Shown piece by piece: positions 8,158 through 33,084 of a stretch of 42,238 nucleotides of DNA. The notes under the pieces are model-generated. The model was not told where the DNA came from and did no database searches. It worked only from the letters and a program-made list of their open reading frames with translations. The first letter of the stretch is position 1, and each line of letters starts with the position of its first letter. Position numbers and translations under genes: made by a program. The DNA is from Rubrivivax sp. (lineage in GTDB: Bacteria; Pseudomonadota; Gammaproteobacteria; Burkholderiales; Burkholderiaceae_C): positions 1 to 42,238 of the forward strand of contig SEFA01000056.1 of assembly GCA_004210455.1 (NCBI GenBank), written 5' to 3'.

Positions 8158-8579
8158 GCGTCACACCGGCAACTGCTGTGCCGTGCACCGCTGCGCGAGC
8201 GGCCGTCCTTCTAGCCTGCGTTGGCGTACGCCTTCATCCATTGCGCCTGCCCGTGATTCAACCGCATGCCCCACGGCTCGCGGGCACTGCAGCGCTTGGA
8301 TCGGGGCGCATCGCTCCGACGCCAATCCACGGCGCCAATCCACGACGCCAAGCAACGACGCATGGTCGCATCGCTGACACCGAAATCGCCCGAGGCCGGG
8401 CGCCTTTCCGGGGCGACATGAGTCGGGACGGTCTCTACGCTGACCTCACTCGATCCTGCGCAACCGAGCTGATCGCCACAGGGTCGGGGCCGGGACTGGT
8501 CAAGGACAGCCACCCGACACCTTCCGTTGTTCCGACTGCGAATGCATCTGCCCCGACCTGAACCCAGAGCCTCGACACC
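8158..8579. other. gene-free stretch upstream of the secretion cluster
   Basis: About 420 bases between the divergent response regulator and lytic transglycosylase genes. It contains the 13-bp array at 8322-8360 and must hold the promoter that starts the long plus-strand transcript. Open frames here lack start signals and protein-like composition. Confidence 0.4.
8322..8360 (+). repeat. 13-bp tandem array, 3 units
   Basis: CCAATCCACGGCG, CCAATCCACGACG, CCAAGCAACGACG follow head to tail. Non-coding, with a unit length that is not a multiple of three. Confidence 0.8.
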
Positions 8580-9416
8580 ATGAGCCTGCTCCTTACCACC
8601 CTCCTGCTCTCCTCGCTCGTTTTCCCCGGCTCCGCGGCGGCGTGCTGGAGCGAGGCGGCGCAGCGCTACCGCATTCCCGTCGCGTTGCTTCGCGCGATCG
8701 CGCAGGTGGAGTCCAACCTTGATCCCCGCGCCGTCAACCGATCGCATCTGGCGCGTACGGGCACTTACGACATCGGCCTCATGCAGGTCAACAGTTCCAA
8801 CTTGAAGAGGCTCGAGCAGTACGGGTTCACCGAAGCATCGCTCCTGGACCCGTGCGTCAGCCTGAACCTCGGCGCCTGGCTGCTCGCCGAGCTTTTTTCT
8901 CGCCATGGTGTGACCTGGAACGCCGTCGGCGCCTACAACGCCTCTTGCACGCAACTTCAGGGTAGTGCCTGCAGGACAGCCCGGGCCCGGTATGCGTGGC
9001 GGGTGTACCGCCAATTGGTCACCTTGCGGGGAACGGCCCGAGCGGGAAAGTCTCAAGTGGCAGGCGACGCGGTGGTTGCGAGCTCCCTGACTCCCTCAAG
9101 GTCGCCCTCAGACCCGCCTGCGGATCCGCCTTCAGGCCTGCGTTCAAGGCCGTTCTCAGGGCCGCCTTCGCGGGTGCCTACCCGACTTCGGCGTGGGTCC
9201 ATCCCGGCCGGCCACCTCGCACCCCGCCCTCGCCCCTCGAGCGCCCCCTGGCCGAAGCATCACCTGTTGCATCGGCTGCGACGAACCGAGCGATGTCCGA
9301 CGACCGTCCGCAAAGCGCGCAGACAGGCCTTCATGGCGCTGACCAACGCCCGCCGCAATCGGCGCACGCCCACCGACGCAGACATCGCGGCGTTCAAGCC
9401 ATTAGGCGTTTGGTGA
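8580..9416 (+). CDS. lytic transglycosylase, VirB1/TrbN-like
   Basis: A 278-residue exported muramidase that would open the peptidoglycan for the secretion channel. A signal peptide (to about residue 21, AAA-CW) leads into an SLT domain: catalytic Glu44 in [13 protein letters not shown], then [11 protein letters not shown] and GAYNASC as in VirB1/IagB enzymes. Cysteines in ACW, DPC, NASC and GSAC probably form disulfides. From about residue 155 the protein changes to a Pro/Ser/Arg-rich tail made partly of tetrapeptide repeats (9093-9200) and ends in a basic region with [16 protein letters not shown]. It opens the tra cluster, a usual place for this enzyme. Confidence 0.88.
9093..9200 (+). repeat. 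12-bp tandem array inside the transglycosylase tail, about 9 units
   Basis: In-phase dodecamers encode tetrapeptides of the kind [32 protein letters not shown]. Individual units differ at several bases but hold the 12-base period and the Pro/Ser pattern. Confidence 0.75.
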
Positions 9417-9536
9417 AACGACGAGTCGCAAGAGCCCGGTAGCCCACCCCGCTCGAGAACCTAGCGGGCCGATGTCCTGGGTGTCGGTCGAACCAAGGTT
9501 GCCTGATCGGCGCAACTTCCTTCCGGAGAAATTCAC

Positions 9537-9980
9537 ATGAGCACGTCCACGCCATCGACCACCATCCACCACATCAGCTCGACGCGCCCGGACGAGCTTG
9601 GGGAAACGAGCGTCGCCCGCGCCCAGGCGAGCGCGCATGCGCCAACGAACACGTTCGCGTTCCGTCTCGCCCATAGCTCCCACGGCTTGCTCACCCTCAT
9701 CGCCCTCACGCTGGTCGGTCTGGCGTTCGCCTTCCCCAGCCAGGCACTCGACCTGGTCGCCTTCACCGGGATCACCGGCCCTCTGACGTCCGCGCTCACG
9801 CAGATCTCCGCCTTGGGTCCGGGCATCAAGGCGCTGGTCGGCTTCGTGGGTTTCGTCGTCGCGCTGATCTCGCTCTCGGCGATGCGCAACTTCTCGTCGG
9901 TGCTCTTTTACGTCGGTCTGGCGATCTTCGCCGCGGTGGGGCTGGTCATCGCCGGCGCAATCATGGGCGCCGTGATCTGA
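9537..9980 (+). CDS. traA: candidate F-type pilin precursor (TraA-like)
   Basis: A 147-residue protein immediately upstream of traL, the traA position in F-type clusters. A long polar leader (about 48 residues) is followed by a hydrophobic segment ending FAFPSQA, with a good signal-peptidase site after Ala70. The mature part, about 77 residues, has two hydrophobic helices (around 100-113 and 123-146) joined by a short AMRNFSS segment; mature F pilin is 70 residues with two helices and also comes from an unusually long leader. GGAG precedes the ATG. Assignment rests on position, size and topology rather than sequence identity. Confidence 0.7.
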   Translation: MSTSTPSTTIHHISSTRPDELGETSVARAQASAHAPTNTFAFRLAHSSHGLLTLIALTLVGLAFAFPSQALDLVAFTGITGPLTSALTQISALGPGIKALVGFVGFVVALISLSAMRNFSSVLFYVGLAIFAAVGLVIAGAIMGAVI

Positions 9981-10026
9981 GCGCCCTTTGTCGACCGCTT
10001 CATTCGCAGGCCCAAATCGTCCCCCT

Positions 10027-10048
10027 CTCCAGCGTCTCTCCAGCGTCT
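10027..10048 (+). repeat. exact 11-bp duplication upstream of traL
   Basis: CTCCAGCGTCT occurs twice head to tail without mismatch, in the non-coding gap just before the traL ribosome binding site (CGGAGG). Confidence 0.85.
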
Positions 10049-10060
10049 CTCGGAGGCCCC

Positions 10061-10360: not shown

Positions 10361-10374
10361 CCAGGAGCACCGGC

Positions 10375-10941
10375 ATGGACTTCGAGCGATTCCAACTGGG
10401 CCTGCACGACCTGCAGCAGCGCAACCGCGGTCTGGCGTTCACAGTCGCCGCGCTGTGCGTGAGCCTGCTGGTCTCTCTGCTGGTCATCTTCACGCTGCTG
10501 GGAACGGTGCGCACGGTCGTGGTGCCGCCCTCGATCAACAAGTCGTTCTGGGTGACACGCGACAAAGCCTCCACAGAGCTGCTCGAACAGATGGGCAGCT
10601 TCATCGCCTGGCTGATCCTGGATGTCACGCCCAGTTCGATCGACTGGAAGAAGGACATACTGCTGGGCTACGTGGACCCGGCTGAATACGGCGGGCTCAA
10701 GACGCGCCAAGAGGTCGAGGCGGAGCGCCTCAAGCGCATCAATGCGGCCACGAGCTTTTCCCCGCAGCAACTGGTCGCCAGCGAGGCCAGCCAATCGCTG
10801 ATCGTGCGGGGCCGGCTGCGCACCCTGGTCAACGGGTTCGAGACAGCCAGCGAGCTCAAGGCCTACCGGATCGAGTTCGCCTATGCGGGCGCCCGCATGC
10901 ACGTGGCGACCTTCAAGGAGGTGCCCTATGCGGTCAAGTGA
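10375..10941 (+). CDS. traE: type IV conjugative transfer protein TraE
   Basis: A 188-residue protein, the same length as F TraE (VirB5/VirB8-like). It has an N-terminal transmembrane helix (about 22-45) and a periplasmic domain with the family features VVPPSINKSFWV and LLGYVDPAEYG, ending YRIEFAYAGARMHVATFKEV. It contributes to the inner membrane pilus assembly complex. CAGGAG precedes the chosen start. Its last 14 bases overlap traK, whose AAGGAGG lies inside traE. Confidence 0.93.
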   Translation: MDFERFQLGLHDLQQRNRGLAFTVAALCVSLLVSLLVIFTLLGTVRTVVVPPSINKSFWVTRDKASTELLEQMGSFIAWLILDVTPSSIDWKKDILLGYVDPAEYGGLKTRQEVEAERLKRINAATSFSPQQLVASEASQSLIVRGRLRTLVNGFETASELKAYRIEFAYAGARMHVATFKEVPYAVK

Positions 10942-12121
10942 CGCCCTCCGGCGCGCGGCGGCAGTCGGCGACGAAACCCACCGCGGCCACGATGGTGACG
11001 CGGTAATGGGTCGAGCGCACCAGCCATCCCTCCGCGCTTTGACGTCGTGGCTCGGCCTGGCTTGCCGGCCAACGCAGTGCCTGAGCACCCAGGCCCCAGT
11101 CGCGGTTGGGTCGTACGCGCCGGCTTGGCATCGCCGTGTCGGCGTTGCCGGGCCGTTGACCGGACCATCAATCAGACCATTCACCAGACCTTCAACCAGA
11201 CCGTTGACCAGCCCTTGCACCAGACCCTGGATCAGGCTGTGGTCCAGCGTGTTATCCGGCGTGTTATCAGGCTTGTTACACGGCGTGATACCCGGCGTGT
11301 TGGCCGGGCTGTCGATCGGCGGGCCGGTTCACGCCCTGCAGGTGCTCGATGCCAGCGACGGCGTCTCCGTCGAGGGCGTGATTTCAATCAAGGAGCCCAC
11401 CCGCATTCGCATCGAGGGCGCGGCGATCACCGACGTCGTGGGCAACATCCACACGAGCCACTGCGGCAACCCGACATCAGGCGCCACAGGCGCCGCACTG
11501 GCGTCGCCGCCCGGCATGGCACGGCTCGCGGTGCCCCTGGACCCTGCCGGAGAGGTCGTGCTGGAGTGCGACAGGGACCGGGGCGAGGTCTACATCCGCC
11601 CGGTCGGCGCCGGCGACAAGCCCATCAACCTGTTCGTGTCCTCCGCAGCGGCGACCTATACCCTGCTGCTTCGGCGTGCGGACGTCCCTGCGGACACCCT
11701 GCTGATCCGCGACAAGACGCCCAGAGGCCCTCGCTCGCACCGCGAAGGACCGGCCGCCGCCAGCGCCGCACCTGCCGGGACGGCCCCCCATCACGTCCGG
11801 GTCTTGAAGGCGATGCTCGTGGCAATGGCCTCCGACAGCGTCCCGCATGACATACGCGTGGAAGAGACGATGCGTCCCGTGAGGCTTTGGAGCGACACGA
11901 ACTTCTCGCTGCAGCGCGTGTATGAAGGTCGCGGCCTGCTGGGTGAGCTCTACGTGCTGCAAAACAGCGGCGCTCAGACGCTCGATCTGGCGGAACAGCA
12001 ATTCGACCGGCCGGACGGACCGCTCACCGGTGAGGTCGTTGGCGTGGCCATCGATCGATCCAGACTTGCACCGGGTCAGAGCACGCGTGTGTACGTGATT
12101 CGACGTGGAGGCACGCAATGA
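10928..12121 (+). CDS. traK: type-F secretin-like protein TraK with repeat-built leader
   Basis: A 397-residue periplasmic/outer membrane core component (VirB9/secretin-like); F TraK is about 240 residues. The conserved part begins near ALQVLDASDGVSVEGVIS (about residue 137) and includes RIRIEGAAITDVVGNI, GEVYIRPVG, INLFVSS and YTLLLRRADVPADTLLI, as in TraK. The extra N-terminal 130 residues contain a run of tetrapeptides (11157-11324) that changes from Arg/Pro-rich to Leu/Gly/Val-rich, the latter being the only candidate export-signal core. The start at 10928 has AAGGAGG 6 bases upstream. It overlaps traE by 14 bases and traB by 4 (ATGA). Confidence 0.9.
   Translation: MRSSDALRRAAAVGDETHRGHDGDAVMGRAHQPSLRALTSWLGLACRPTQCLSTQAPVAVGSYAPAWHRRVGVAGPLTGPSIRPFTRPSTRPLTSPCTRPWIRLWSSVLSGVLSGLLHGVIPGVLAGLSIGGPVHALQVLDASDGVSVEGVISIKEPTRIRIEGAAITDVVGNIHTSHCGNPTSGATGAALASPPGMARLAVPLDPAGEVVLECDRDRGEVYIRPVGAGDKPINLFVSSAAATYTLLLRRADVPADTLLIRDKTPRGPRSHREGPAAASAAPAGTAPHHVRVLKAMLVAMASDSVPHDIRVEETMRPVRLWSDTNFSLQRVYEGRGLLGELYVLQNSGAQTLDLAEQQFDRPDGPLTGEVVGVAIDRSRLAPGQSTRVYVIRRGGTQ
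11157..11324 (+). repeat. 12-bp tandem array in traK, about 14 units
   Basis: Phase-locked dodecamers from TGACCGGACCAT through TCACCAGACCTT and GCACCAGACCCT to TATCCGGCGTGT and TACCCGGCGTGT. The second base-triplet motif (CCAG/CCGG) is held while the flanks drift. The first units encode SIRP, FTRP, STRP, LTSP; the later ones encode WSSV, LSGV, LSGL, IPGV, LAGL, that is, the hydrophobic core of the TraK leader. Confidence 0.9.
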
Positions 12122-13866
12122 CCCGTCGACCCACGTCTCAGTCTCCCGCCCGATACGCCTGGTCATCGGGGCGCGTGCTCGAGTGGCGTGAACGCGTCCG
12201 CGCGCGACTGGAGGCCCTGAGTCCGCGACAGCGCCAATACGCACTGCTCGCTGTGCTGCTCGCTGGCGGCATCGCGCTCCTGTGGGTGGTGTTCAGCCTG
12301 AGCAACCCGGCACAGGAAGCGCGGACCGTAGACGCCACGGCACAGGGAGGGACTAGCGTGACCAACGTCGGCGTCCTGCCGCCGGGAGCGCCGCTCAATC
12401 CCGTCGACCAGTGGGTCGGGACCGCCGGACGCAAGCTGGCGCAGTACGAGTCGGAGCGCGAGGAACAGGGCCGCCTGAACAAGGAACGGCAAAGCTTCGA
12501 GTCCCGCACGATGCAGCGGTTTGCGGAACTGGAGCAGCGCCTCACCTCCGCGCAGCAAGGAGCTGTCTCTTCGGCACCGGTGACGGCGTCTCCGTCCGTA
12601 TCTCAGCCCGCGCAGCACGTTCAGCCGCTTCAGCCCCTTCAGCCGCTTCATCCCCTGCCGCCCGATGAATCTGCGCAACCTGCGCGGGCGCAGCAGTTCC
12701 CTCCGCCGCCGCAAACCCTGTCACCGCAACCACTCCCGCCGCGTCACGGGCCTCCCGCGCATCCACCGCAGTCCCCGTTCCCGCCGACATCATCGGTCGG
12801 CGCGACGCGCCCAGTCGCGCCATCGGCTGCCGCCCTGGGCTATCCCTCAGACATGCCGCCCGGCGTCCCCTCGGACGTGTCACCCGACATCCGTACAGAC
12901 ACGACATCCTTTGCGACGACCTCCAGCGCTCCGGTCATCTCGCGGGTGAGCGTGGGAGCGGAGCCAGCTCGAAGCACCGCGCGCGACGATGCCCTAGAGC
13001 AAGGGACCCCGCAGCCCAATCACGGGGACCCCGCCACGGCCAACGTCACGGGTTCATCCACCGTCGCTTCGCACGAGGCGCGCACCGTGGCCACCTTCCT
13101 GCCCGTCAGCTTCACGCGCGGCACGTTGCTGGGGGGACTCGACGCTCCGACAGGTGGGCAGTCGCAGTCCAATCCGCAACCCGTGCTGATCCAGCTCTCG
13201 GACAACAGCGTGTTGCCCAATCAGTTCCGCGGTGAGTACCGCGACTGTTTCGTTGTCGCGGCGGGCTACGGCGACATCAGCTCCGAGCGGGCCTACCTTC
13301 GCACTGAAAACCTGTCCTGCGTGCGGGCCGACGGCGCAACGCTTGAAGTTCGGATCCAGGGCACCGTCTACGGCGAAGACGGCAAGGTGGGGATGCGCGG
13401 TCGGCTGGTCACCAAACAGGGCCAGATGCTTGCCAACGCATTGTTGGCCGGCGTGGTCAGCGGCATCGGTCAAGGACTCTCCACCGCCAACACCAGCTAC
13501 AGCTCCTCCCCGCTGGGAACCACCGCCAGCACCGACAGCAGCGCGGACGCCTACCGCGCCGGCATTGGCAGCGGCGTGGGCAAGGCGCTGGACAGGCTCG
13601 CGCAGTACTACATCAAGCTCGCGGAGAACACGTTCCCTGTTATCGAAGTGGACGCCGGCCGAGAGATCGATGTGGTCGTCACCAGAGGCGTGCGGATCGA
13701 CGTCCCGATATCGGGCAATCCAAGTGTTCCTCCAAGTGTTCCTGCCACGCCGGATGTCAACGGCCGCACGTCAGTCAACGAGCCACGAGGTCCGCTCTCG
13801 CCTTCACGCCGGTTCCCTTCACCTGAAACACGTTATCTGGGGGCGATCCAAGATGAGCGCTACTAG
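12118..13866 (+). CDS. traB: type IV secretion core protein TraB
   Basis: A 582-residue VirB10-like scaffold that spans the periplasm from the inner to the outer membrane. One transmembrane helix (about 40-62, LLAVLLAGGIALLWVVFSL), a coiled coil around 105-145, a long Pro/Gln/Ser linker (150-300, including 9-bp repeats encoding PLQ), then the TraB/VirB10 domain: TFLPVSFTRGTLLGGLDAPT, QFRGEYRDCFVVAAGYGDI, ERAYLRTENLSCV and GMRGRLVTKQGQMLANALLAG, ending FPVIEVDAGREIDVVV. Two exact 12-base copies at 13720-13743 encode PSVPPSVP. ATGA overlap with traK; 14-base overlap with the next gene. Confidence 0.93.
   Translation: MTRRPTSQSPARYAWSSGRVLEWRERVRARLEALSPRQRQYALLAVLLAGGIALLWVVFSLSNPAQEARTVDATAQGGTSVTNVGVLPPGAPLNPVDQWVGTAGRKLAQYESEREEQGRLNKERQSFESRTMQRFAELEQRLTSAQQGAVSSAPVTASPSVSQPAQHVQPLQPLQPLHPLPPDESAQPARAQQFPPPPQTLSPQPLPPRHGPPAHPPQSPFPPTSSVGATRPVAPSAAALGYPSDMPPGVPSDVSPDIRTDTTSFATTSSAPVISRVSVGAEPARSTARDDALEQGTPQPNHGDPATANVTGSSTVASHEARTVATFLPVSFTRGTLLGGLDAPTGGQSQSNPQPVLIQLSDNSVLPNQFRGEYRDCFVVAAGYGDISSERAYLRTENLSCVRADGATLEVRIQGTVYGEDGKVGMRGRLVTKQGQMLANALLAGVVSGIGQGLSTANTSYSSSPLGTTASTDSSADAYRAGIGSGVGKALDRLAQYYIKLAENTFPVIEVDAGREIDVVVTRGVRIDVPISGNPSVPPSVPATPDVNGRTSVNEPRGPLSPSRRFPSPETRYLGAIQDERY
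12616..12660 (+). repeat. 9-bp tandem array in traB, 5 units
   Basis: CACGTTCAG, CCGCTTCAG, CCCCTTCAG, CCGCTTCAT, CCCCTGCCG, encoding HVQ-PLQ-PLQ-PLH-PLP in the Pro/Gln linker. Confidence 0.85.
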
Positions 13867-15103
13867 ATCTTCATCGGAATCGCGACGTTCCTGCGCGCCA
13901 CGCTCTGCGTCGCGATCTGTCGCCTCCGCCATGGTCACCGCCATGGTCGCCGCCCTCGTCGTTGAGATCGCCGCATCGGTACTCGACGCGCCGTGCCTGG
14001 CCAGTCCGCCCAAGGCAAGCGCAGCCGTCCGCAGTGCGGGCACGCCAAGCTCGGGGGCCGTCCAGCCATCATCGACGAAGTCCCGTCTCGCTTCGAGCGC
14101 TCTGATGAACGCGCTCCGCAAGGCGCACCCGGGCACGCGATTCAGCGATGCCGTTCCAACCGAGGTTCCCGAACTCTACGAGGTCTGGATGAATGACACG
14201 GTCGCGTACGTGTCGTCGCGCAACCCGCGTTTCTTCGTTTTCGGGCGCCTCTTCGACACCCGCACGATGCGCGACGTGACCGCGCCTCGGCTGGCTCTGC
14301 AAGCGCAAGGCTGGTCTGGCCGGTCAGCCCGTGGCCCGGGCGAGGACATAGGCGGCGATCGCGATGGGCGCGACGTTGGCAGCGATGTCCATGGCAATGG
14401 GCGCAGCGTGGCGAGGAACGCCGCGGGCGACAACGACATCGACGGGATCGAAACACAGGACAAGGCGCCGTTCCTCGCAGTTCCCTTCCATCAGCTTCCG
14501 CTGACGGATGCCTTGCGCACCGTGCACGGCAATGGCGATCGGCAGCTCGCCGTCTTCAGCGATCCGGGCTGCGCGTACTGCCAGCAGTTGGAGCAAGAAC
14601 TCGCCCGACTAGACAACGTTACGATCCATACCTTCATCGTGCCGTTCCAGGGCCATGCCCGCCCCGTCTCCATCTGGTGCGCAGCGGATCGAGAACGCGC
14701 GTGGCGCCAATGGATGCTGCAAGGGGATGCCACAGCGCAGAGTAGCGTGGCCAATTGCGCTCACCCCATCGAACGCAATCTGGCGTTGGCGCGCCGCTGG
14801 CAGGTCAATGCCACCCCCACCCTGATCTGGAACGACGGGCAACGGACGGTCGGCTTCGTCGCCCGGGAGGAGATCGAAGCGAGGTTGAAGGTGGCCTCGC
14901 CAATGCGCGTTCCCCCACCCGCGCCGGTCCCATTGTCGGAAACGTCGCCCGCTTCTCGCCGGGAAACATCATCTCTCTCGGCACCTATCTCCGCATCGGT
15001 TTCGGCGCCCCTCTCATCCCGCGTTCCTTCAGCCCAACCAGGGACCTCGCTCGAGGCTGTGCATTGGGCTGAGCGCCCTCGGTTGCAGGAGGACAAGCCA
15101 TGA
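13853..15103 (+). CDS. dsbC: DsbC-family thiol:disulfide isomerase
   Basis: A 416-residue periplasmic protein with an N-terminal hydrophobic signal, a partial DsbC-type dimerisation region (MNALRKAHPGTRFSDAVPTE, YVSSRNPRFFVFGRLFDTRT), and a thioredoxin fold with active site Cys240-Ala-Tyr-Cys243, then QVNATPTLIWNDGQRTVGF containing the cis-Pro. DsbC proteins in F-type clusters isomerise disulfides of Cys-rich Tra proteins, here probably TraU and TraN. E. coli DsbC is about 236 residues; the excess comes from an Asp/Gly-rich repeat insert (14345-14440) between the two domains and a Ser/Pro-rich tail after residue about 345. It overlaps traB by 14 bases and traV by 4. Confidence 0.9.
   Translation: MSATRSSSESRRSCAPRSASRSVASAMVTAMVAALVVEIAASVLDAPCLASPPKASAAVRSAGTPSSGAVQPSSTKSRLASSALMNALRKAHPGTRFSDAVPTEVPELYEVWMNDTVAYVSSRNPRFFVFGRLFDTRTMRDVTAPRLALQAQGWSGRSARGPGEDIGGDRDGRDVGSDVHGNGRSVARNAAGDNDIDGIETQDKAPFLAVPFHQLPLTDALRTVHGNGDRQLAVFSDPGCAYCQQLEQELARLDNVTIHTFIVPFQGHARPVSIWCAADRERAWRQWMLQGDATAQSSVANCAHPIERNLALARRWQVNATPTLIWNDGQRTVGFVAREEIEARLKVASPMRVPPPAPVPLSETSPASRRETSSLSAPISASVSAPLSSRVPSAQPGTSLEAVHWAERPRLQEDKP
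14345..14440 (+). repeat. 12-bp tandem array in dsbC, 8 units
   Basis: In-phase dodecamers such as GATCGCGATGGG, CGCGACGTTGGC and AGCGATGTCCAT encode DIGG, DRDG, RDVG, SDVH, GNGR, SVAR, NAAG, DNDI in the interdomain linker. Strongly degenerate but period-locked. Confidence 0.65.
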
Positions 15104-15930
15104 GGTGGCTTTCATGCGTTTCTTTGACCACGTGCTGGCCCGCGCCACAGACATGGCACGTGCTGCCGATCTACGCGTCGCGTCTGCTGGCGGTAGGCTC
15201 CACGAGCATGCTCGGCGCCTGCTTGAGCATGTCCGGTCTGGAAGGCGAGGCGAAGTACGCCTGCTCCGCGCCCCAGGGCGTGACCTGTCAATCGGTCTCT
15301 GGCACTTACGCCAATGCTTCGCGCAGTGGCGCAACACTTATCCGACCCACCTGGGCCTCGCCCGCGAACCAGGACAGGCCAGCCACCGAAAAGCCAGCCT
15401 TCGACAAGCCAGCCATCGACAAGACAGGCATCGAAACACGCGAGGCATGGGACAACGGCGCGCCAGGCAATGACCGAACCAACGGTGCTTGGCGCACGCA
15501 GCCCCGCGTGCTCAGGTTGTGGACCAAGGCCTGGGAAGACGCAGATGGCGATCTGTGGGCTCAAGGGTATGTGTACGTCCAGGTTTCCAATGGCGCGTGG
15601 CGCATCGATCACATTCGCCAGCTGACCCGCGATCGCTTTGCGCGCCTACGCCCGCCCAGCCCAGCGTCGTCGCCGACGACGGAAGCCGACCCGGCGCCGC
15701 CCGCCGCGCTGTTTGAGCGATTGCCACAGTCGCAGCGGACGGAACGCCCCGGACGCCCCGAACGACGCGTACAACCCGTACGACCCGAACTCCCGGCCGA
15801 TGCGGATCGTGTGGATGGCGTCGCGCCGGACCCGGCGATCCCCTTCCACCGTACAGCCCGACCGACGCCAGCGCCATTTTCATCCCCGTTTCAGTCGCCC
15901 GAGGGACGCCAAGTTCCTCGTTCCAAGTGA
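15100..15930 (+). CDS. traV: outer membrane lipoprotein TraV
   Basis: A 276-residue lipoprotein (VirB7-like) that holds the TraK-TraB core in the outer membrane. The lipobox LGAC gives lipidated Cys41, and the TraV signature follows at once: MSGLEGEAKYACSAPQG then VTCQSVSGTYANA with its paired cysteines. A conserved distal block reads RVLRLWTKAWEDADGDLWAQ. F TraV is 171 residues; the surplus is repeat-derived: RPATE-KPAFD-KPAID-KTGIE (15376-15435) and an Arg/Pro/Glu stretch near 15739-15796. CAGGAGG precedes the ATG, which overlaps the dsbC stop. Confidence 0.9.
   Translation: MRWLSCVSLTTCWPAPQTWHVLPIYASRLLAVGSTSMLGACLSMSGLEGEAKYACSAPQGVTCQSVSGTYANASRSGATLIRPTWASPANQDRPATEKPAFDKPAIDKTGIETREAWDNGAPGNDRTNGAWRTQPRVLRLWTKAWEDADGDLWAQGYVYVQVSNGAWRIDHIRQLTRDRFARLRPPSPASSPTTEADPAPPAALFERLPQSQRTERPGRPERRVQPVRPELPADADRVDGVAPDPAIPFHRTARPTPAPFSSPFQSPEGRQVPRSK
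15376..15435 (+). repeat. 15-bp tandem array in traV, 4 units
   Basis: AGGCCAGCCACCGAA, AAGCCAGCCTTCGAC, AAGCCAGCCATCGAC, AAGACAGGCATCGAA. Encodes pentapeptides RPATE, KPAFD, KPAID, KTGIE between the TraV Cys motif and the distal domain. Confidence 0.9.
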
Positions 15931-18767: not shown

Positions 18768-19153
18768 CCCGGCCAGACCTCGGCGGCCTCGTCAGCGCGG
18801 CGCGCCAGTTCGGTCTTGCGTCTCTCGCATCGTGCGTGGTGTGCGTGGTCGCGCTGGCAACCTATGACCGACGTGTACTGCGACCGGCGATGACGGTTGG
18901 CGTCGTTGACATTGCCGAGGTCTACCGGGCCAAGGAAGCCGAGTTCGCGCTCCTGCTCACTCGCGCGAGCGCCGATGAGGATCGCGAGAAGGCATTGGCC
19001 ATGGCGCGGGCCTTTGCTCGTCGCCTGCCCATTGCGCTGGAAGAGCTGCACAAGGAATGCGGCTGTCTGGTGTTGGTGAAATCGGCGGTCGCCGGCGCAC
19101 CGCATCCGCGCGACCTGACCCCGCTGCTGCGGCAGAAGGTGCAATTGCCATGA
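18764..19153 (+). CDS. trbI: type-F conjugative transfer protein TrbI
   Basis: A 129-residue inner membrane protein with one helix (about 18-33) and a periplasmic part carrying VGVVDIAEVYRAKEAEFALLL, the TrbI signature; F TrbI is 128 residues and modulates pilus retraction. It overlaps traC and the next gene by ATGA on both sides. Unlike its neighbours it has no repeat insert. Confidence 0.88.
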   Translation: MTRPDLGGLVSAARQFGLASLASCVVCVVALATYDRRVLRPAMTVGVVDIAEVYRAKEAEFALLLTRASADEDREKALAMARAFARRLPIALEELHKECGCLVLVKSAVAGAPHPRDLTPLLRQKVQLP

Positions 19154-23722: not shown

Positions 23723-23797
23723 GTCACCGACTCACCGAGTCACCGAGTCACCGAGTCACTGAGTCACTGAGTAACTGAGTCAACTGAGTCAACTGAG
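23720..23797 (+). repeat. 8-bp tandem array between trbC and traN, about 9 units
   Basis: Units YGAGTCAC: TGAGTCAC, CGACTCAC, CGAGTCAC (three times), TGAGTCAC, TGAGTAAC, then 9-base variants TGAGTCAAC. The first TGA is the trbC stop. This is the largest gap inside the central part of the cluster. Confidence 0.92.
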
Positions 23798-25167: not shown

Positions 25168-25703
25168 CCCGCCCTGCAGCGCTGCACATCCGGAGCACCT
25201 CCTCGGCGCTCCCGAGCCCGGCCATAACGCGCCGTCCGTGGGCACGGGGGGCCTCCATCGCAACGGACGCTACAGCCGCCGCGGACTTCGCTGACTCGAG
25301 ACCCTGCAGCCCTGCGCTGCGCGTGCGGCGCTTACTGCGCATGTTGTTCGTGGCCGCCGCGCTCTGCAGCGCCACTTGCCAAGCGGAAGACTTGGCGCGA
25401 ACACCCGTGAACGATGCCCGACCGCTCCTGATCGCAGCGCTCGCCGCTGAGGATGGACACGCGCACGGCGTGTTGAAGAACGACGTGGCCGACGCGATCA
25501 CGCGACGTTTCGAAGCCACCAGTCCCATCTACATCGATGTGACGACCCAGCGCCGTTATCAGCAAGCCGGTTGCGCACGGCTGAGCGTCGTGTTCTGGCA
25601 GGACGGCGTGAAACTCCCCGGTCAAGCGGCCGCCCGACGCCAGACCATCGAGTTCGCCTTGAACTACTGCCTCGACGGTTTGCCGCCCAAGGCACTGCGC
25701 TAG
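25164..25703 (+). CDS. unknown exported protein of the tra cluster
   Basis: A 179-residue protein not recognised. A polar leader of about 55 residues precedes a signal-like hydrophobic segment (LLRMLFVAAALCSATCQAED), leaving a mature domain of about 105 residues with two cysteines (QQAGCARL and LNYCLDG) and the strongly patterned ending IEFALNYCLDGLPPKALR. Start 25164 is chosen for the ATGA overlap with traN; an ATG six bases earlier is possible. The gap to the traF start is 8 bases. Location between traN and traF suggests a periplasmic accessory role. Confidence 0.7.
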   Translation: MTRPAALHIRSTSSALPSPAITRRPWARGASIATDATAAADFADSRPCSPALRVRRLLRMLFVAAALCSATCQAEDLARTPVNDARPLLIAALAAEDGHAHGVLKNDVADAITRRFEATSPIYIDVTTQRRYQQAGCARLSVVFWQDGVKLPGQAAARRQTIEFALNYCLDGLPPKALR

Positions 25704-25711
25704 GAATTCGC

Positions 25712-26740
25712 ATGCGCCGCGCTGCCCTCACCTGCATGGTCCTGGTCGCGCTGCTGTCCTCGCAGTTGTGGCACTCGTCGCAGTCCCCGCACTCCTCTCA
25801 CTCCTCGCACTCCTCGCAGTCGTTTCAGCCGTTCATCGCGGCGTCACTCGCGCAGACGCCTGCGCCGCCCGACGCGGCACGCGCAACATCGCGCGCGGAA
25901 GAAAGCGTTGCCGCGCCTCGGCCCGCCCGCGTCGTTGGCCCGCCGGCCACGGCGTACTGGGATGACACCTGGCGGGGCTGGCATTTCTATGAGGAGCCGG
26001 AGCCCGAACTGTCGGCTGAGGACCTCGCCCGAAGGCGCAGGGCGCGTTCCGCAGCCGCGCCTCGCCCTCCCGCGTCCTCAGCCTCTGCGCCTGAGAACGT
26101 CCGCGCGCCCGAACTGGTGGAGTTCGAGCAGCTGCAAAAGACGCTGGAAGAGTTCCGCAACATCGCCATCATGCGTCCGACCGAGGCCAATGTGCGCCGC
26201 TACATGGCGTTCGAGGCCAGTGTCGTGGCCCGCGCGTCCTACTTCGCGGACGTGGCGCAGCGCGTAGCTTGGTCCACACCGGAGCTCGACCCCTCAGTCC
26301 ATGGCAGACCGTTGAACGCCAAGGCGCTGGAGGTGTTTGAGCAGCGTCAGCGCGATGAGCGCTCAAGCACAGCCGCCGCGCTGGGGCGCGACCACGTGCT
26401 GTTCTTCTTCTTCCGATCGGACTGCCCGTATTGCCACGCCTTCGCGCCGACATTGCGAGCGTTCGAGGAACGCCACGGACTGCAGGTCGTACCGGTCAGC
26501 CTCGACGGAGGGCCGCTCCCGTCGTTCCCCAGCGTTCGAAAGGACAACGGCATTGCCAGCGCCCTGAACGTGACCCGGGTGCCTGCCGTGTTCCTCGCCC
26601 AGCCCTTCAGCGGCACGATCACGCCGATCGGTTTTGGCGTGCTCTCCGAATCGCAACTGCTCGAGCGCATCGCCACCGTGTCGACACCCGAGTCGCATGC
26701 GATGTTGCCGGGCGCGACGCGGCGCCTGGCGCTGCCCTAG
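25712..26740 (+). CDS. traF: type-F pilus assembly protein TraF, thioredoxin-like
   Basis: A 342-residue exported protein (F TraF 247) of the pilus assembly set. The signal segment is followed by a His/Ser/Gln tripeptide array, then the TraF motif YWDDTWRGWHFYEEPEP, a helical middle with FRNIAIMRPTEANVRRYM, and a thioredoxin fold with Cys238-Pro-Tyr-Cys241 and the cis-Pro in LNVTRVPAVFLAQP. F TraF lacks the CxxC, so this copy may be redox-active with DsbC. AGGAA lies 6 bases before the ATG; the traH start follows 9 bases after the stop. Confidence 0.92.
   Translation: MRRAALTCMVLVALLSSQLWHSSQSPHSSHSSHSSQSFQPFIAASLAQTPAPPDAARATSRAEESVAAPRPARVVGPPATAYWDDTWRGWHFYEEPEPELSAEDLARRRRARSAAAPRPPASSASAPENVRAPELVEFEQLQKTLEEFRNIAIMRPTEANVRRYMAFEASVVARASYFADVAQRVAWSTPELDPSVHGRPLNAKALEVFEQRQRDERSSTAAALGRDHVLFFFFRSDCPYCHAFAPTLRAFEERHGLQVVPVSLDGGPLPSFPSVRKDNGIASALNVTRVPAVFLAQPFSGTITPIGFGVLSESQLLERIATVSTPESHAMLPGATRRLALP
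25754..25834 (+). repeat. 9-bp tandem array in traF, 9 units
   Basis: CTGTCCTCG, CAGTTGTGG, CACTCGTCG, CAGTCCCCG, CACTCCTCT, CACTCCTCG (twice), CAGTCGTTT, CAGCCGTTC, encoding LSS-QLW-HSS-QSP-HSS-HSS-HSS-QSF-QPF within and after the signal region. Confidence 0.9.
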
Positions 26741-28288: not shown

Positions 28289-28411
28289 CACACGAGCCAC
28301 ATCCTGCGGCGGGCGAGACAAGTTCGGCGGGCGACCACTGCTCGAACTGTGACCACCGCGGCAACTGCGAGGGGCCGGATACCGCAAGTACGGACTCTCC
28401 GGGAGAACTTC

Positions 28412-31357
28412 ATGTGGGAGATCTACGCCTACCAGAACGCCGACAGCCTGTTCGGCATCTTCAACGCCTCGGCGGCCATCCACGCCTCGGGCGAGTACGC
28501 CAGCGCCGCCGCAGCCGTTGCCTTCTGCGGCTTTGTTGCCGCATTACTCTCCTACGCGTTTGCGCCCGAAAAGCTTCAAGGGTGGCGATGGCTGGCGTCC
28601 GTCACCCTTGTCTTTGGCCTCCTGATCGTTCCCAAGGTGAGCGTGGGCATCCTCGACAAGACCGGCGGCGCGCCAGTGAAGGTGGTGGACAACGTGCCCT
28701 TCGGCGTGGCGCTCCTCGGCAGCATCACCAGCACCATCGGACACACGCTGACCGGCCTGTTCGAGACGGCGTTCCAGTACCTGCCGGGCGGCGCCGCACA
28801 GCCAGGCGAGCTCAGCTACGAGCAGCACGGACTGATGTTCGGAAACCGGCTCGTGCGTGAGACCGCCGACGTCGTGTTTCAGGACCCCGCCTTTCGCGTC
28901 GACCTGATCAACTTCATCCACAACTGCACCACCTACGATCTCATTGACGGCACGCTGGATCCTGCGACTTTCTCGGCGTCGAGCGATGTCTGGCCGCTGA
29001 TGGCCAGCCCCAATCCCGCGCGCTTCACCACGGTCACGACGTCGGCGCAAAACCCCGGGGGAAACAGCGGCGGAAACAGCGGCGGAAACGGCGGCAAAAA
29101 TGGCGGCGAAGACGGCAGCGTCCTCATCGGAGCCGCGGTCGGAGTGGGGAGTGCCGTGGGCATCGACACCTGCCCCGACGTCTACCAGAACCTTCAGGCG
29201 CGACTGCCAGCGCAGCTCGTGCGCATCCAGGGCCGCCTGGCGTTCCAGCTCAATCCGACGCTTCCCCGCGCCGCCGCCGCCAGCGTCATCGCCAGCCAGA
29301 TCCAGCAGGCCTACCTCAGGAACAGCATTGCGGACGCCTCCGCCGGCGCCGCGGACATCGTTCGCCAGAACGCGATGCTCAATGTCATCCAGGACGCCGG
29401 AAAGATGGTGGGGCAGAAGGTCAACGATCCCGCCGCGATGGTTCTTGCGGTCGGCCGGGCGCAGGCCGTGGCTCAGCAGAACGCGTCCTGGCTCAACTAC
29501 GGCAAGGTGGCCGAACAGGCCCTGCCCGTGTTTCGCAACGTCGTCGAAGCGATGGCCTACGCGATATTCCCGCTCTTCGTACTGCTGCTCCTGATGACCA
29601 GCGGTCGAGAGACGATGCTGGCGTTCAAGGGTTATGCAGGACTCCTGATCTGGATCCAGCTGTGGCCCCCGCTGTACGCCATCCTGAACTACATGGCCTC
29701 GACCTACGCCGCCTACGACCTCGCCGCGGCATCAGACCTGGGCACCGGCGCCAAGGCCCTGTCGCTGCAGACCGCCTCCAGCATTTACGCCCGAGCGATC
29801 TCCGGCGAGGCCGTGGTGGGTTACCTCTCGCTCAGCATCCCGTTCATCGCCTGGGCTTCGCTCAAGCGCATGGAGACCGTGGGGACCGCCCTGGTGGGTG
29901 GACTCTCCGGCCTGCAGGCCGCGCTGACCGGGTCGACCGCTTCCGCAGCGCTGGGCAACACGTCGATGGGCAACGTAGCCATGGACCAGATGCAGCTCTC
30001 ACCCAACCGGTCCTCGGCGTTCATGGGCCGCTGGCAGGACGATCTCAGCGGCGACTCCTTCACCGCCGGCGTGCTCGGCGGACGTACGGCCGTGAGCCTG
30101 CTGCGCAATCAGGGGTACGCCTCGCGCGTCGTGTCCATGCGAGTCTCCGAACAGGATGTCCGCGATGCAAACCGACAAGTGGCGGCCGCGCGAAGCGAAT
30201 CGGTCGCCGCGCACAGCGAGCGTTCGAGCGTCCTTGCCGAATCCTTCACCAAGGGCGTGAGCACGCTGCGCGCAAGCCGCAGCGCCCATGGCACCACCAG
30301 TAGCGAATTCGAGCAGTTCGGTGAGAACCTCAACCGGCTTGACCAGATCAGCAAAAGCGTCTCGGAGGCGACCGGATTCACGCAGGCCCAGGCCGCCCGC
30401 ATCGCCCTCGGCGCAGCGGCGCGCCTGGGCGTGAGCAGCCCTGTGGCCGGACTTCAAGGGCACGTCTCAGCGGACAAGAGCTACGTCTCCAACCTGTCCA
30501 AGGCGGAACAGCAGGTCGTCGCCGCGATGACTCAGGATCAGCTGTCCGAATTCAAGCAGTTCGGCGATCGGATCTCGCGGGACCGGTCCTATGCAAGCCT
30601 CGTGTCCTCCGATGCAAAGGAGGCACAGGACCTTTCCGCCCGCCTGTCGTCCTCCGCCGCGCGCTCGGAGCGCGCCGACGCGAGCCTCGTGCACAGCACC
30701 GCCGTGTCGGAGCGCATGACCAGCGCCTATGAACGCGGCGAAACGCTGTCCATCGACATCGCCCAGGATCCGCACAATCTGGCGATGTTCACCCGGTTCG
30801 CGCAGCGGTACGGAGGCAGCAGCGCTTCGGCTCAGGTGATGATGGAAGCAGAGCTGGCCAGACAGTCGTTGCGCCCCAACCGCGTGTTCGCAGAGGCACC
30901 AAGTGTTCAGAGCGGCGCGAGCGGCCCGAGCGGCCAGGGTGGCCAGAACAGTTCAAACGCCGCGGAAGTCTCGGCGCTTCCCTCGGGCGCCGAGGCTGTG
31001 GACCGGGCGTACGACGCCAACCGCAAGGCTCCGCCATTGCAGACCGATCTCAGCGCCGCGCATGGGCGGCACAAGGATGCCGTCCTGCATTCCATCGCTC
31101 AGCGACAGACGGCGCCGCCACCGGTCGGCGCTGCGCAGCAGCGCGAGGATTTCAAGCGCGAGGGAGGAAGGGTGCGCACCGATGTCGCGGAGCTGGCTCG
31201 GCGAGTCGGCGTCGACGCCGTCGCTGAGTCGTCCACCGACGGCACGTTGAGGTCACCCCACTCCTTGCTGGGCAAATCGGCGAAACAAGTCGGTGCGGAC
31301 GTCGAGCCGGTCATTGACAAAGCAGCGGGTGTCGTCCGGCGGCTGATGGACGACTGA
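28412..31357 (+). CDS. traG: conjugal transfer mating-pair stabilisation protein TraG
   Basis: A 981-residue inner membrane protein (F TraG 938), needed for pilus assembly through its N-terminal part and for mating-pair stabilisation through its periplasmic C-terminal part. It opens MWEIYAYQNADSLFGIFNA with helices near 30-50 and 62-80, the TraG middle NFIHNCTTYDLIDGTL, more helices near 375-500, then a long Ser/Ala/Gln coiled region. A Gly/Asn repeat (29060-29119) interrupts the periplasmic loop and an SGx triplet run is near 30907-30951. GGGAG precedes the start. It ends the cluster. Confidence 0.93.
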   Translation: MWEIYAYQNADSLFGIFNASAAIHASGEYASAAAAVAFCGFVAALLSYAFAPEKLQGWRWLASVTLVFGLLIVPKVSVGILDKTGGAPVKVVDNVPFGVALLGSITSTIGHTLTGLFETAFQYLPGGAAQPGELSYEQHGLMFGNRLVRETADVVFQDPAFRVDLINFIHNCTTYDLIDGTLDPATFSASSDVWPLMASPNPARFTTVTTSAQNPGGNSGGNSGGNGGKNGGEDGSVLIGAAVGVGSAVGIDTCPDVYQNLQARLPAQLVRIQGRLAFQLNPTLPRAAAASVIASQIQQAYLRNSIADASAGAADIVRQNAMLNVIQDAGKMVGQKVNDPAAMVLAVGRAQAVAQQNASWLNYGKVAEQALPVFRNVVEAMAYAIFPLFVLLLLMTSGRETMLAFKGYAGLLIWIQLWPPLYAILNYMASTYAAYDLAAASDLGTGAKALSLQTASSIYARAISGEAVVGYLSLSIPFIAWASLKRMETVGTALVGGLSGLQAALTGSTASAALGNTSMGNVAMDQMQLSPNRSSAFMGRWQDDLSGDSFTAGVLGGRTAVSLLRNQGYASRVVSMRVSEQDVRDANRQVAAARSESVAAHSERSSVLAESFTKGVSTLRASRSAHGTTSSEFEQFGENLNRLDQISKSVSEATGFTQAQAARIALGAAARLGVSSPVAGLQGHVSADKSYVSNLSKAEQQVVAAMTQDQLSEFKQFGDRISRDRSYASLVSSDAKEAQDLSARLSSSAARSERADASLVHSTAVSERMTSAYERGETLSIDIAQDPHNLAMFTRFAQRYGGSSASAQVMMEAELARQSLRPNRVFAEAPSVQSGASGPSGQGGQNSSNAAEVSALPSGAEAVDRAYDANRKAPPLQTDLSAAHGRHKDAVLHSIAQRQTAPPPVGAAQQREDFKREGGRVRTDVAELARRVGVDAVAESSTDGTLRSPHSLLGKSAKQVGADVEPVIDKAAGVVRRLMDD
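29060..29119 (+). repeat. 12-bp tandem array in traG, 5 units
   Basis: GGAAACAGCGGC (two exact copies), GGAAACGGCGGC, AAAAATGGCGGC, GAAGACGGCAGC, encoding GNSG-GNSG-GNGG-KNGG-EDGS. Exact copies imply a recent duplication. Confidence 0.92.
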
Positions 31358-31680
31358 GCATCAGTTCAATCCTCCGGCTGGGCGTCGTGCGTCGCATACG
31401 AACGCACTCCATCAAGCCGGCGGGCCAACCGGTTGGCAGCGCGGCAGCGCCGCAAGTCGGCGGTCGGCGGTCGGCGATCGGCGGGTCGGCAGGTCCAGAA
31501 GAAATTTCTACAGCCTGCGCAACCCGTACTGCATTGCGCTCGGAACCACCGGAGAAAGGTTCGGCAGAGCGGCGTCAAAGTTCTCCACGCGTGCCCCGCG
31601 CCTTGTAGGCCCCAGGGATCGGTCCAGATAGGCGCGGGGTACCACGTCTCATCAAGGTACGGCGCTTGCAAGGCAGCAGG
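31358..31680. other. gene-free stretch after traG
   Basis: About 320 bases. It contains a short 7-bp array (GTCGGCG repeated about four times with variation, near 31459-31490) and no supported gene. I see no convincing terminator for the traG transcript. Confidence 0.4.
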
Positions 31681-31696
31681 TGTTGGCATGTGCCAA
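31681..31696 (+). promoter_or_regulatory. palindromic element TGTTGGCATGTGCCAA, copy 2
   Basis: Base-for-base identical to the element at 2221, including the TTGGCA-TG-TGCCAA inverted repeat, and 39 bases before the ATG of a similar Q-rich protein. Sequence on either side differs from copy 1, so the element itself appears to be what is conserved. Confidence 0.6.
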
Positions 31697-31719
31697 TGCA
31701 GTCCGCCACGAGGCAAACC

Positions 31720-31938
31720 ATGACCCAGCAGTCCAGCCAAGGTCAGAGCCAACAAATCAAGACACAGCGAGACCACCAAGGTCTTCGCAATCGGCCGTTG
31801 CGGCTATCAAACCCACAGGACCTGCAGGAGTTGCAGGACCAGCAGGCTCTGCAAGCCCAGCAGCGTCAGGAGTTCCAAGGTCGGGACCTGCAGCGTCTGC
31901 ACGAGCAGCAGCGCGAGGGCGGCAGCCAGCGGCATTGA
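31720..31938 (+). CDS. Gln-rich small hydrophilic protein
   Basis: A 72-residue protein starting MTQQSSQGQSQQIKTQRD with a Gln/Leu/Asp middle (LQELQDQQALQAQQRQEFQG), about a third Gln and predicted soluble or coiled. It resembles the N-terminus of the protein at 2258 and shares its upstream palindrome. The ATG at 31720 is chosen by that similarity; an upstream in-frame ATG would start before the palindrome. Function unknown. Confidence 0.55.
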   Translation: MTQQSSQGQSQQIKTQRDHQGLRNRPLRLSNPQDLQELQDQQALQAQQRQEFQGRDLQRLHEQQREGGSQRH

Positions 31939-32129
31939 ACCGGTTCAGCCTGGATTGCGGCCTAGCACTTCCTGACCGCAAGCTCTATCGAATGGGGTTC
32001 GGTCGCCAACCCCGATGCCATCCGCGGCATGGCCGGGCCTCGACCCTGCGCTGCCGTCCTAGATCTGGAATCTCGGTTGCCTAGAGGACGTCGAGCCGTC
32101 ATGTCCGACGGACAAACCTTGGAGCACTC

Positions 32130-32615
32130 ATGAAAATTCATCACCTCGTCATCGCTGGCGGCGTTGCCTACCTGACTGCCCGCTTCATGCGGCCCCAATC
32201 CTCGTCCGCCGTGGTTGATCGAGCGGCTTCGCCGAGTGCAGGGAGCACGGATAGAGAGTCGAACGGAACGCTCGGTGACGCTGCAAGACGGACCTCTGGT
32301 CAAGACGCCGGTCAGGGCATCAACCAGTCCAACAGTCAGTCCACCGAGCAGCTCCGCGATCGGCCCATCAATCACGCCACCAATCACGCCACCAGTCAGA
32401 CCACCAATCAACCCCGTCGCGACGCCCAGCCCGTAGCCACTGCGCGCGCAGGTCAAGACCAGTCAGGCGACCGCGCCTCCTCCACGCCGGTCACCGCGCA
32501 GGCGGCAAACGCTTCGAGGGGGTTGGAGCGTCCCGCACTCGGCCTCCCACCTGGTCAGCCGCTTGAAGGCAACCCGTCGAAGGCCGGCGTTGCAGGTCTC
32601 TCTAGCGGCGCCTGA
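32130..32615 (+). CDS. repeat-rich protein with short N-terminal hydrophobic segment
   Basis: A 161-residue protein with a weak hydrophobic N-terminus (HHLVIAGGVAYLTARFM) that could anchor it, then a disordered Ser/Thr/Gln/Asn body built largely from 11 tetrapeptides (32298-32429), and a Pro/Gly tail. TTGGAG precedes the ATG and an intrinsic-type hairpin follows at 32648. No family recognised; the clean start signal and terminator are the main support. Confidence 0.55.
   Translation: MKIHHLVIAGGVAYLTARFMRPQSSSAVVDRAASPSAGSTDRESNGTLGDAARRTSGQDAGQGINQSNSQSTEQLRDRPINHATNHATSQTTNQPRRDAQPVATARAGQDQSGDRASSTPVTAQAANASRGLERPALGLPPGQPLEGNPSKAGVAGLSSGA
32298..32429 (+). repeat. 12-bp tandem array, 11 units
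   Basis: GGTCAAGACGCC, GGTCAGGGCATC, AACCAGTCCAAC, AGTCAGTCCACC and so on, with two exact adjacent copies of AATCACGCCACC at 32370-32393. Encodes GQDA, GQGI, NQSN, SQST, EQLR, DRPI, NHAT, NHAT, SQTT, NQPR, RDAQ. Confidence 0.88.
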
Positions 32616-32647
32616 TCGCACCGCGGCACCTCGACTGTCGTTTTCAT

Positions 32648-32673
32648 CGGGCGTCTGAAACGGACGCCCGTTT
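32648..32673 (+). terminator. candidate intrinsic terminator
   Basis: Perfect 8-bp stem CGGGCGTC/GACGCCCG, 7-base loop, followed by TTT, 33 bases after the stop of the repeat-rich protein gene. Confidence 0.6.
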
Positions 32674-32883
32674 CGATCGCTAGGTCAAGCGGTCTGGCGT
32701 TCTAGCGGTCAGGCGGACAGGCGGTCGGCGATATGCAATGGTCCGAGGCGAGGCAGATTTCAGTGACCGTGCCGGAGCTGATCTGCCTGCCGGGACCGGC
32801 GTGCACAGGACCCGCACTTGCCACACGCACTTGCTACATCCACGCTGAACCGCACCCTCCGACGCGGTCGCCAGGAGCACACC

Positions 32884-33084
32884 ATGACACATCCATCACC
32901 GCAAGCGCCTGTACGTGCCACGGAACTTGTACGTGCACCGGATCATGAACGTGCATCCGCCGCGGCGCCCAGCGATGGCGACAGCGACGCTTGTTTGCCC
33001 TGTCCAGGCGCGTTCGAACGAGCCATGCGGGAGGATCCGGAGCAAGCGCCTTGCAGTACTACCGCTGCGCCCCAGTGGTCCTGA
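32884..33084 (+). CDS. small hydrophilic hypothetical protein
   Basis: A 66-residue protein with no recognised family. Its N-terminal half contains three 18-base units (32908-32961) encoding VRATE/LVRAPD/HERASA-like hexapeptides; the C-terminal half has CLPCPGAFERAMRED and one more Cys. CAGGAG lies before the ATG. It lies 71 bases upstream of the DUF2231 gene and may share its transcript. Support is the ribosome binding site only. Confidence 0.4.
   Translation: MTHPSPQAPVRATELVRAPDHERASAAAPSDGDSDACLPCPGAFERAMREDPEQAPCSTTAAPQWS
32908..32961 (+). repeat. 18-bp tandem array, 3 units
   Basis: CCTGTACGTGCCACGGAA, CTTGTACGTGCACCGGAT, CATGAACGTGCATCCGCC; the core TGTACGTGC/TGAACGTGC is held. Confidence 0.8.

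Follow-up and report, generated by a model that had tools for sequence, protein, structure and literature searches.

What process fills an F-type secretion gene cluster of Rubrivivax sp. with short tandem repeats, each with its own unit, and is that process a property of the cluster or of the genome that carries it? We addressed this question on nt 1–42,238 of contig SEFA01000056.1 (hereafter the window), together with homologous loci, further stretches of the same genome and related genomes.

Results

A probably acquired island with an F-type secretion cluster

Synteny with two sister species, G005 and G008, ends at nt 1872–1876 and restarts at nt 39839. The G008 flanks are non-adjacent, and therefore do not provide a simple empty site. 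No tRNA gene that could serve as integration site was found in the window or in four sister flank stretches.

1877–39838, no strand assigned: island, missing beside the matching flanks of two sister species, holding the F-type cluster
8580–31357, + strand: F-type type IV secretion cluster, from Pfam matches above the gathering cut-off

The cluster contains SLT, a pilin-like ORF, TraE, TraK, TraB, DsbC, TraV, TraC, an S26 protease, TraW, TraU, TrbC, TraN, TraF, TraH and TraG, with Pfam matches above the gathering cut-off for TraE, K, B, V, C, W, U, TrbC, N, F, H and G. The ORF at nt 9537–9980, outside the Pfam scan, is presumably pilin-like, and that at nt 18764–19153, with no Pfam match, we take to be TrbI-like. 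Of 171 ORFs with at least 90 aa, 30 proteins were scanned, and no relaxase or coupling protein was detected among them. The GC content, 66%, is not extreme among the loci compared. We read this F-type type IV secretion island as probably acquired.

Tandem arrays exceed chance in the cluster

Self-similarity was scored at each lag as the number of twelve-base windows with at least 10 matches, summed over 21 cluster ORFs, and compared with 100 codon shuffles and 100 synonymous shuffles, the latter being the stricter control. At lag 12, 164 windows were observed, against a mean of 4.8 (maximum 15) in the codon shuffles, in line with what a first-pass annotation of this DNA had led us to expect, and a mean of 47.1 (maximum 81) in the synonymous ones. 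Lags 9, 15, 18 and 24 were likewise above every shuffle of both kinds, and lags 7, 8, 10, 11, 13, 14 and 16 were at chance level in the same pooled ORFs. TRF returned 76 rows in total, and 18 arrays score at least 50 in 24.6 kb of cluster; as previously annotated, unit sequences differ from array to array, and the 12-bp pairs at nt 29060–29083, 32370–32393 and 13720–13743 are exact. The arrays are thus real and far beyond chance, with tandem copies in excess at the DNA level as in slippage-type VNTRs or minisatellites.

The annotation had placed arrays in almost every gene. The pooled excess is real, but gene by gene it is narrower: 12 of 21 ORFs (traK, traB, dsbC, traV, traC, S26, traU, trbC, traF, traG and two small ORFs) beat all 100 codon shuffles at one or more of lags 9, 12, 15, 18 and 24, and six (traK, traB, traV, traC, traU and 32130–32615) were positive against synonymous shuffles. 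No lag signal was found in the other nine, namely the transglycosylase, the pilin-like and TrbI-like ORFs, 20061–20666, traN, 25170–25703 and the conserved traE, traW and traH. The transglycosylase, for which an array had been claimed, is without a TRF row, and none of its lag-12 windows reaches 10 matches. The arrays are listed below, all from TRF and all on the + strand.

11156–11301, +: two 12-bp arrays at the N-terminus of TraK, RPxT repeats followed by signal-peptide-like sequence; traK lags 12 and 24 above all shuffles of both kinds
12613–12656, +: 18/9-bp array in the TraB proline-rich linker (QPLQPLQPL)
13719–13743, +: exact 12-bp pair near the TraB C-terminus, overlapping private insertion 13726–13797
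13926–13954, +: 12-bp array in the DsbC signal-peptide-like region; above codon, not synonymous, shuffles
15378–15436, +: 15-bp array in a TraV linker (KPAxD); also from lag shuffles and homologue alignment
15742–15794, +: 9-bp array in the TraV tail (TRF score 43), overlapping private insertion 15760–15780
16102–16130, +: 12-bp array in the TraC N-terminal leader (TRF score 44–46); also from lag shuffles and homologue alignment
19697–19739, +: weak 9-bp array in the S26 protease (GDL/GDQ; TRF scores 32–36)
21525–21673, +: 12-bp arrays (VRSx, AQSP) in the leader that separates traW from the conserved beginning of TraU; also from lag shuffles
22898–22940, +: 12-bp array in the TrbC signal-peptide-like core (LPVA); above codon, not synonymous, shuffles; also from homologue alignment
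23710–23797, +: 8/24-bp array at the trbC end and the gap before traN
25771–25818, +: 9-bp array (HSS) in the signal-peptide region of TraF; above codon, not synonymous, shuffles; also from homologue alignment
29049–29116, +: 12-bp array in a TraG insertion (GGNS) missing in four relatives; lag signal above codon, not synonymous, shuffles
31456–31495, +: 7-bp array downstream of traG
32365–32410, +: 12-bp array in a small ORF (NHAT); also from lag shuffles

Periods follow the reading frame

In the sampled stretches of the own genome the period was divisible by three in 65 of 68 coding arrays and in 19 of 30 non-coding ones. The split relies on a home-made GC-frame gene caller whose performance is poor in the cluster, where it called 49% coding. 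Within the accuracy of this approximate caller, arrays are in frame in genes and take other periods outside, again as in slippage-type VNTRs. Period analysis of the homologous loci took in 93 of 97. As claimed, the strong coding arrays all have periods that are multiples of three, but four weak coding rows (TRF scores 32–39) depart from this, with periods 8, 10, 10 and 16. Twelve is simply the commonest multiple of three among coding arrays of the sampled genome; the 30 non-coding arrays spread from 5 to 32 bp with no peak at 10–12, and the proposed stepping by one helical turn was rejected.

The strong arrays lie in sequence that relatives lack

With F-type clusters of Burkholderiales and neighbours the present one shares Pfam families and general gene order, TraC being up to 87% identical. 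Unlike it, those clusters are array-poor: TRF density is 7.3 arrays/10 kb here against a median of 0.44 and a maximum of 2.5 in 97 homologous loci (at least 11 of which are second retrievals of an already included contig). Tra fragments of the same-genus genome G002 showed no enrichment either (1.04 arrays/10 kb).

The strong arrays sit in linkers, signal-peptide regions or leaders without counterpart in relatives, and their residues are 3–22% identical to the homologues aligned there, the relatives' aligned part at leaders possibly being untranslated upstream sequence. Identity to 65 homologues is 0.17 and 0.04 at the two TraK arrays; mean occupancy is 0.20 in 65 homologues at the TraB linker array (private insertion 12598–12645) and 0.00 in 63 at the S26 array, which lies within a 150-nt private insertion (19597–19746). 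TraU homology of relatives begins near nt 21901. Several strong arrays fall within private insertions, and private interior residues number 323 in the cluster against 131 in the next-ranked of 64 loci. Shuffles, private insertions and periods thus agree with the site-specific, frame-filtered local tandem duplication that had been proposed.

Certain weak TRF rows are conserved sequence rather than duplications: traC 17214–17236 and traE 10724–10742 are 96% and 92% identical in 65 homologues. Most of the private sequence shows no visible tandem structure. Of 25 private insertions at least 12 nt long, only 6 exceeded the control 90th percentile of local self-similarity (KS p 0.24), and the idea that all of them are decayed tandem copies was rejected.

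Across 56 loci array density tracks GC (0.44, p 0.0007). Terminal branch length was related significantly neither to array density (Spearman 0.24, p 0.07) nor to the lag-12 signal (Spearman 0.01, p 0.95), and relaxed selection, measured in this way, was rejected as an explanation; the terminal branch of the cluster is the third longest of the 56.

Arrays of the same kind occur across the genome and the genus

The own-genome background is 1.9 (1.87) TRF arrays/10 kb over 552 kb in 33 stretches (forty drawn, seven mostly N left out), and the remainder of the cluster's contig carries 2.27/10 kb. For short-period arrays (TRF score at least 50, period up to 16, at least three copies) the cluster holds 12 against 2.1 expected from its own genome, a 5.7-fold excess whose Poisson p of 2e-6 is optimistic, since the cluster was picked for its repeats by the first-pass annotation. 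The stretch over which the excess extends is longer than any of the regions sampled. Two resident segments, each about 10 kb long, come near cluster density with 6.4 and 7.0 arrays/10 kb; the value of 7.0 comes from a selected half of a 20-kb segment whose overall density is 4.0.

In the pooled stretches of 16 same-genus genomes, those of the relatives numbering one to five per genome, short-period arrays reach 0.80/10 kb against 0.14/10 kb in 12 genomes of nine other genera, 5.6 times more in the genus stretches (Mann–Whitney p 0.005). The G005 and G008 stretches were selected for matching array-bearing loci; leaving out the own genome and these two sisters gives 46 in 640 kb, or 0.72/10 kb. 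The excess is uneven: such arrays are present in the sampled stretches of 13 of the 16 genomes, none occurring in 40 kb for G007, G010 and G014, and one genome of another genus, G022, stands at 1.25/10 kb. The same type of array is thus spread through the own genome and the genus.

Length differences from sister species are more frequent at resident arrays than at control sites. With 300-bp flanks, 22 of 26 measurable resident arrays were at least 5 bp off from one or more sisters, while 52 of 116 controls were (Fisher p 2e-4); leaving out alignment jumps gives 21 of 25 and 49 of 113. The figures for 120-bp flanks were 16 of 24 and 25 of 118 (p 3e-5). An earlier comparison without controls had given 15 of 19, one of them probably an alignment jump. 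All these comparisons begin from own-genome arrays and are biased towards length differences. They cover resident arrays of the genome, for which they fit recent or ongoing turnover. A restriction of the phenomenon to the cluster is not supported, given arrays of the same kind across genome and genus and at resident loci that differ between sisters.

Density was also set against divergence from the sisters at five resident loci chosen for arrays or the lack of them, with a suggestive outcome only.

Discussion

A tandem-duplication (slippage) habit of the whole genus, filtered by reading frame and constraint and heaviest in the acquired F-type island, is in our judgement the probable explanation. 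Arrays would begin as short tandem duplications and then lengthen or shorten via replication slippage, units of mostly 6–24 bp being gained and lost unusually often in genomes of the genus. Purifying selection would clear frame-breaking units and anything in folded cores, and survivors would be found in linkers, signal-peptide cores, leaders, tails and intergenic DNA. The cluster may be the heaviest site either by long exposure of its loosely constrained segments, which we favour, or by a raised local rate.

An element- or locus-specific duplication process, as considered for Borg elements, would instead run faster here than elsewhere in the cell. The density of 5.7 times the own genome, the private residues (323 against 131 in the next locus), the lower 2.27/10 kb in the remainder of the contig and the low G002 fragments all argue for it; but like arrays occur in 13 of 16 genus genomes' sampled stretches, resident chromosomal stretches reach 6.4–7.0/10 kb, and the 97 homologous loci, which harbour the same system type, do not go beyond 2.5/10 kb, so that we regard it as unlikely, if worth keeping in mind. 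Also unlikely is the bolder form in which a tandem-duplication activity is encoded on the mobile island or drawn to it, its linkers and signal peptides inflating several-fold faster than those of the chromosome, as a bacterial counterpart of Borg repeats. End-joining fill-in of staggered breaks by Ku/LigD could also supply duplications, and Ku is present in 14 of the 16 same-genus genomes, the own one included; G012, however, gave no Ku match and yet has 1.10 short-period arrays/10 kb, above the genus mean of 0.65, which leaves this source very improbable. A mismatch-repair mutator was rejected, MutS being found in all 21 genomes searched, the own one included.

Selection for variable repeats in the secretion apparatus, through phase or antigenic variation or adjustable linkers, would account for array-bearing genes that, going by their roles in F systems, mainly encode envelope and exported proteins. 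We consider it improbable: arrays also occur in the TraC ATPase leader, between genes and in signal-peptide-like regions, which the mature protein would lose, relatives manage without them, and the strong coding units keep the frame and therefore permit no on/off switching. Ancestral protein repeats common to the family would suit the few conserved weak rows (traC 17214–17236, traE 10724–10742); the strong arrays occupy sequence missing from homologues and are therefore not ancestral, as the first-pass annotation implied, and this origin, refuted for the main arrays, has almost nothing left in its favour.

The proposed genus-wide habit has parallels among known systems. Bacterial minisatellites and variable-number tandem repeats arise by replication slippage. 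The present arrays resemble them in their short multi-copy units, mostly weakly constrained sites and, for the resident arrays of the genome, probably in length differences between close relatives; they differ in their unusual density across one 25-kb gene cluster. Slippage and short-homology recombination are both discussed in PMC2884548.

The first-pass annotation knew of no described system of this kind. Pervasive private tandem repeats are, however, already known from the archaeal Borg elements, described in 2023 (PMC9879509, Schoelmerich et al. 2023), the closest parallel in the literature searched, which covered few subscription journals. As that paper reports, Borg units are virtually all unique, of independent origin and missing from homologues, those in genes are divisible by three and commonly disordered, and the repeats, scored as perfect with at least 50 nt and at least three units, are A-rich and nearly absent from the host genome. 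The cluster arrays agree in being unique, independent, in frame in genes and missing from homologues. In contrast to Borg repeats, none of the 76 TRF rows is both perfect and at least 50 nt long (TRF not being the program of the Borg paper), and the host genome has the same type of array, at 1.87/10 kb in 552 kb.

If the genus-wide excess holds, the genus would offer a group for direct measurement of the birth and loss of 9–24 bp duplications, for resident genes as well as for an acquired cluster, and would show the growth of linkers and signal peptides. It also counsels caution, in that a striking repeat-rich cluster may reflect the mutation habit of its host rather than a device of its own.

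Repeat signal in the secretion cluster

The tandem arrays that the first-pass annotation described in the secretion genes are real in the main, with an excess at lag 12 (lag being the spacing at which bases are matched) over both codon and synonymous shuffles. When the 21 ORFs were pooled, 164 windows of twelve bases had 10 or more matches at this lag; no run exceeded 15 such windows among 100 codon shuffles, or 81 among 100 synonymous shuffles. As the latter preserve the protein, the repetition resides in the DNA and not in the protein alone. Lags 9, 15, 18 and 24 were also above all shuffles, and no excess was observed in these ORFs at lags 7, 8, 10, 11, 13, 14 and 16. The claim that almost every gene is involved stands for 12 of the 21 ORFs, taken singly, against codon shuffles and for 6 against synonymous shuffles, not for the remaining ones; the transglycosylase, for which an array was reported, beats neither, and some weak arrays are simply conserved protein sequence.

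The genes lie in a genome of 6.33 Mb (189 contigs), of which the window is one complete contig (C12):

8580-31357, F-type type IV secretion cluster

Relative to two sister species, synteny breaks at 1872-1876 and restarts at 39839, thus placing the cluster within an island of ~38 kb. In near-complete G008, one of the sisters, the two island flanks map 1.3 Mb apart, so a simple empty site was not found. The left flank (1-1876) occurs a second time in the genome, as a diverged copy (95% and 89% identical) that opens contig C115, and two short 12-bp repeats of ~2 copies each (39734-39800) lie at most ~110 bp from the right island boundary. A tandem repeat with a period of 384 bp (6846-7553, 1.8 copies), in a PAS-domain hybrid histidine kinase, corresponds to repeated PAS domains.

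By TRF (score at least 50, period 5-40), the cluster has 7.31 arrays per 10 kb and the remainder of the window 2.27. Over 33 stretches of the same genome, totalling 552 kb, the density is 1.87, and the clusters of four other genomes (G028, G030, G002 and G040) range from 0 to 1.04. Among 97 homologous loci (10 kb or longer), the median was 0.44 and the maximum 2.50, versus 5.7-6.0 in the matching part of the window. The lag-12 score per 10 kb was 57 in the window, the other 55 tree loci having a median of 6.2 and a maximum of 18.7; at lag 15 the window (11.4) was not the top, the tree loci reaching 19.6. In same-genus G002, a related tra cluster is split across the ends of two contigs (L015, L016), without array enrichment.

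Alignments with relatives placed the strong arrays of TraK, TraB, TraV, TraU, TrbC, TraF and TraG in linkers, signal-peptide-like regions, leaders or tails, and the array-bearing segments of these seven proteins are absent from or unlike relatives. Private interior residues, over 17 genes, amount to 323 in the cluster (next highest 131; median of 64 loci 23.5). Since the strong arrays sit in sequence missing from relatives or not shared with them, and given these private residues, the arrays are not ancestral repeats, the origin that the first-pass annotation had set against its own reading. Only 6 of 25 private insertions (at least 12 nt) were locally more self-similar than the 90th percentile of controls, thus the bulk of the private sequence is decayed past recognition or of other origin, a result that counts against a simple story. 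GC at the three codon positions was 0.77/0.59/0.69 in private stretches versus 0.66/0.51/0.81 in core sequence.

Arrays in the chromosome and in the genus

The supposed restriction to the cluster did not hold, as the same kind of array occurs in the organism's own chromosome and in its genus. Counting arrays that score at least 50 and have 3 or more copies at a period no longer than 16, the 16 genus genomes pooled gave 0.80 per 10 kb (the own genome being included without the window), and 12 genomes of nine other genera of the family 0.14; the exceptions were three genus genomes with zero and one genome of another genus (G022) with 1.25. In the own genome, the period is divisible by three in 65 of 68 arrays called coding versus 19 of 30 non-coding ones. 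Cluster density is reached in two chromosomal stretches of ~10 kb, one at 6.4 and one at 7.0 per 10 kb; the latter was selected out of a 20-kb stretch whose overall density is 4.0. Two chromosomal arrays are long and nearly perfect, both with 97% matches (L057:8990-9044, 8 bp x 6.9; L057:12153-12232, 9 bp x 8.9).

At four chromosomal loci with arrays, the sister species G005 and G008 served for comparison: length differences of at least 5 bp from at least one sister were scored, with sites in the same loci as controls. Lengths differ at 22 of 26 measurable arrays versus 52 of 116 control sites with 300 bp on each side, and at 16 of 24 versus 25 of 118 with 120-bp flanks. At one chromosomal locus G005 equals the own genome in arrays (6.2 per 10 kb) and G008 has 0.9; the array-free locus is the best conserved among the five compared. 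A ~125-bp dispersed repeat (L031:14951-15077) has more than 20 matches at ~71-85% identity in the two sisters together.

Origin of the arrays

Short tandem duplication would create the arrays, slippage, which we infer, would alter their length, and selection would decide which duplications persist. Such a scheme fits the frame filter, the independent units, the avoidance of conserved cores and the fluctuating lengths at resident loci. MutS is present in the own genome. Ku is dispensable for the pattern, as same-genus G012 carries arrays without a Ku match.

For the array density of the cluster, 5.7-fold the genome average, we prefer loose constraint during a long stay, because only two of the 56 terminal branches are longer than its own. 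A raised local duplication rate may instead account for the excess, since across loci branch length fails to predict array density, GC content does predict it and yet the cluster is not GC-extreme, and the related G002 fragments are not enriched.

For Borg elements of methane-oxidising archaea (PMC9879509), tandem repeats are described as pervasive, private and independently arising, with in-gene units divisible by three; the present arrays likewise keep frame and are private. However, Borg repeats are defined by perfection over at least 50 nt, found here in 0 of 76 TRF rows, and by absence from the host genome, whereas here the own genome carries arrays. The present arrays are better classed as bacterial minisatellites of the slippage type, at an unusually high density.
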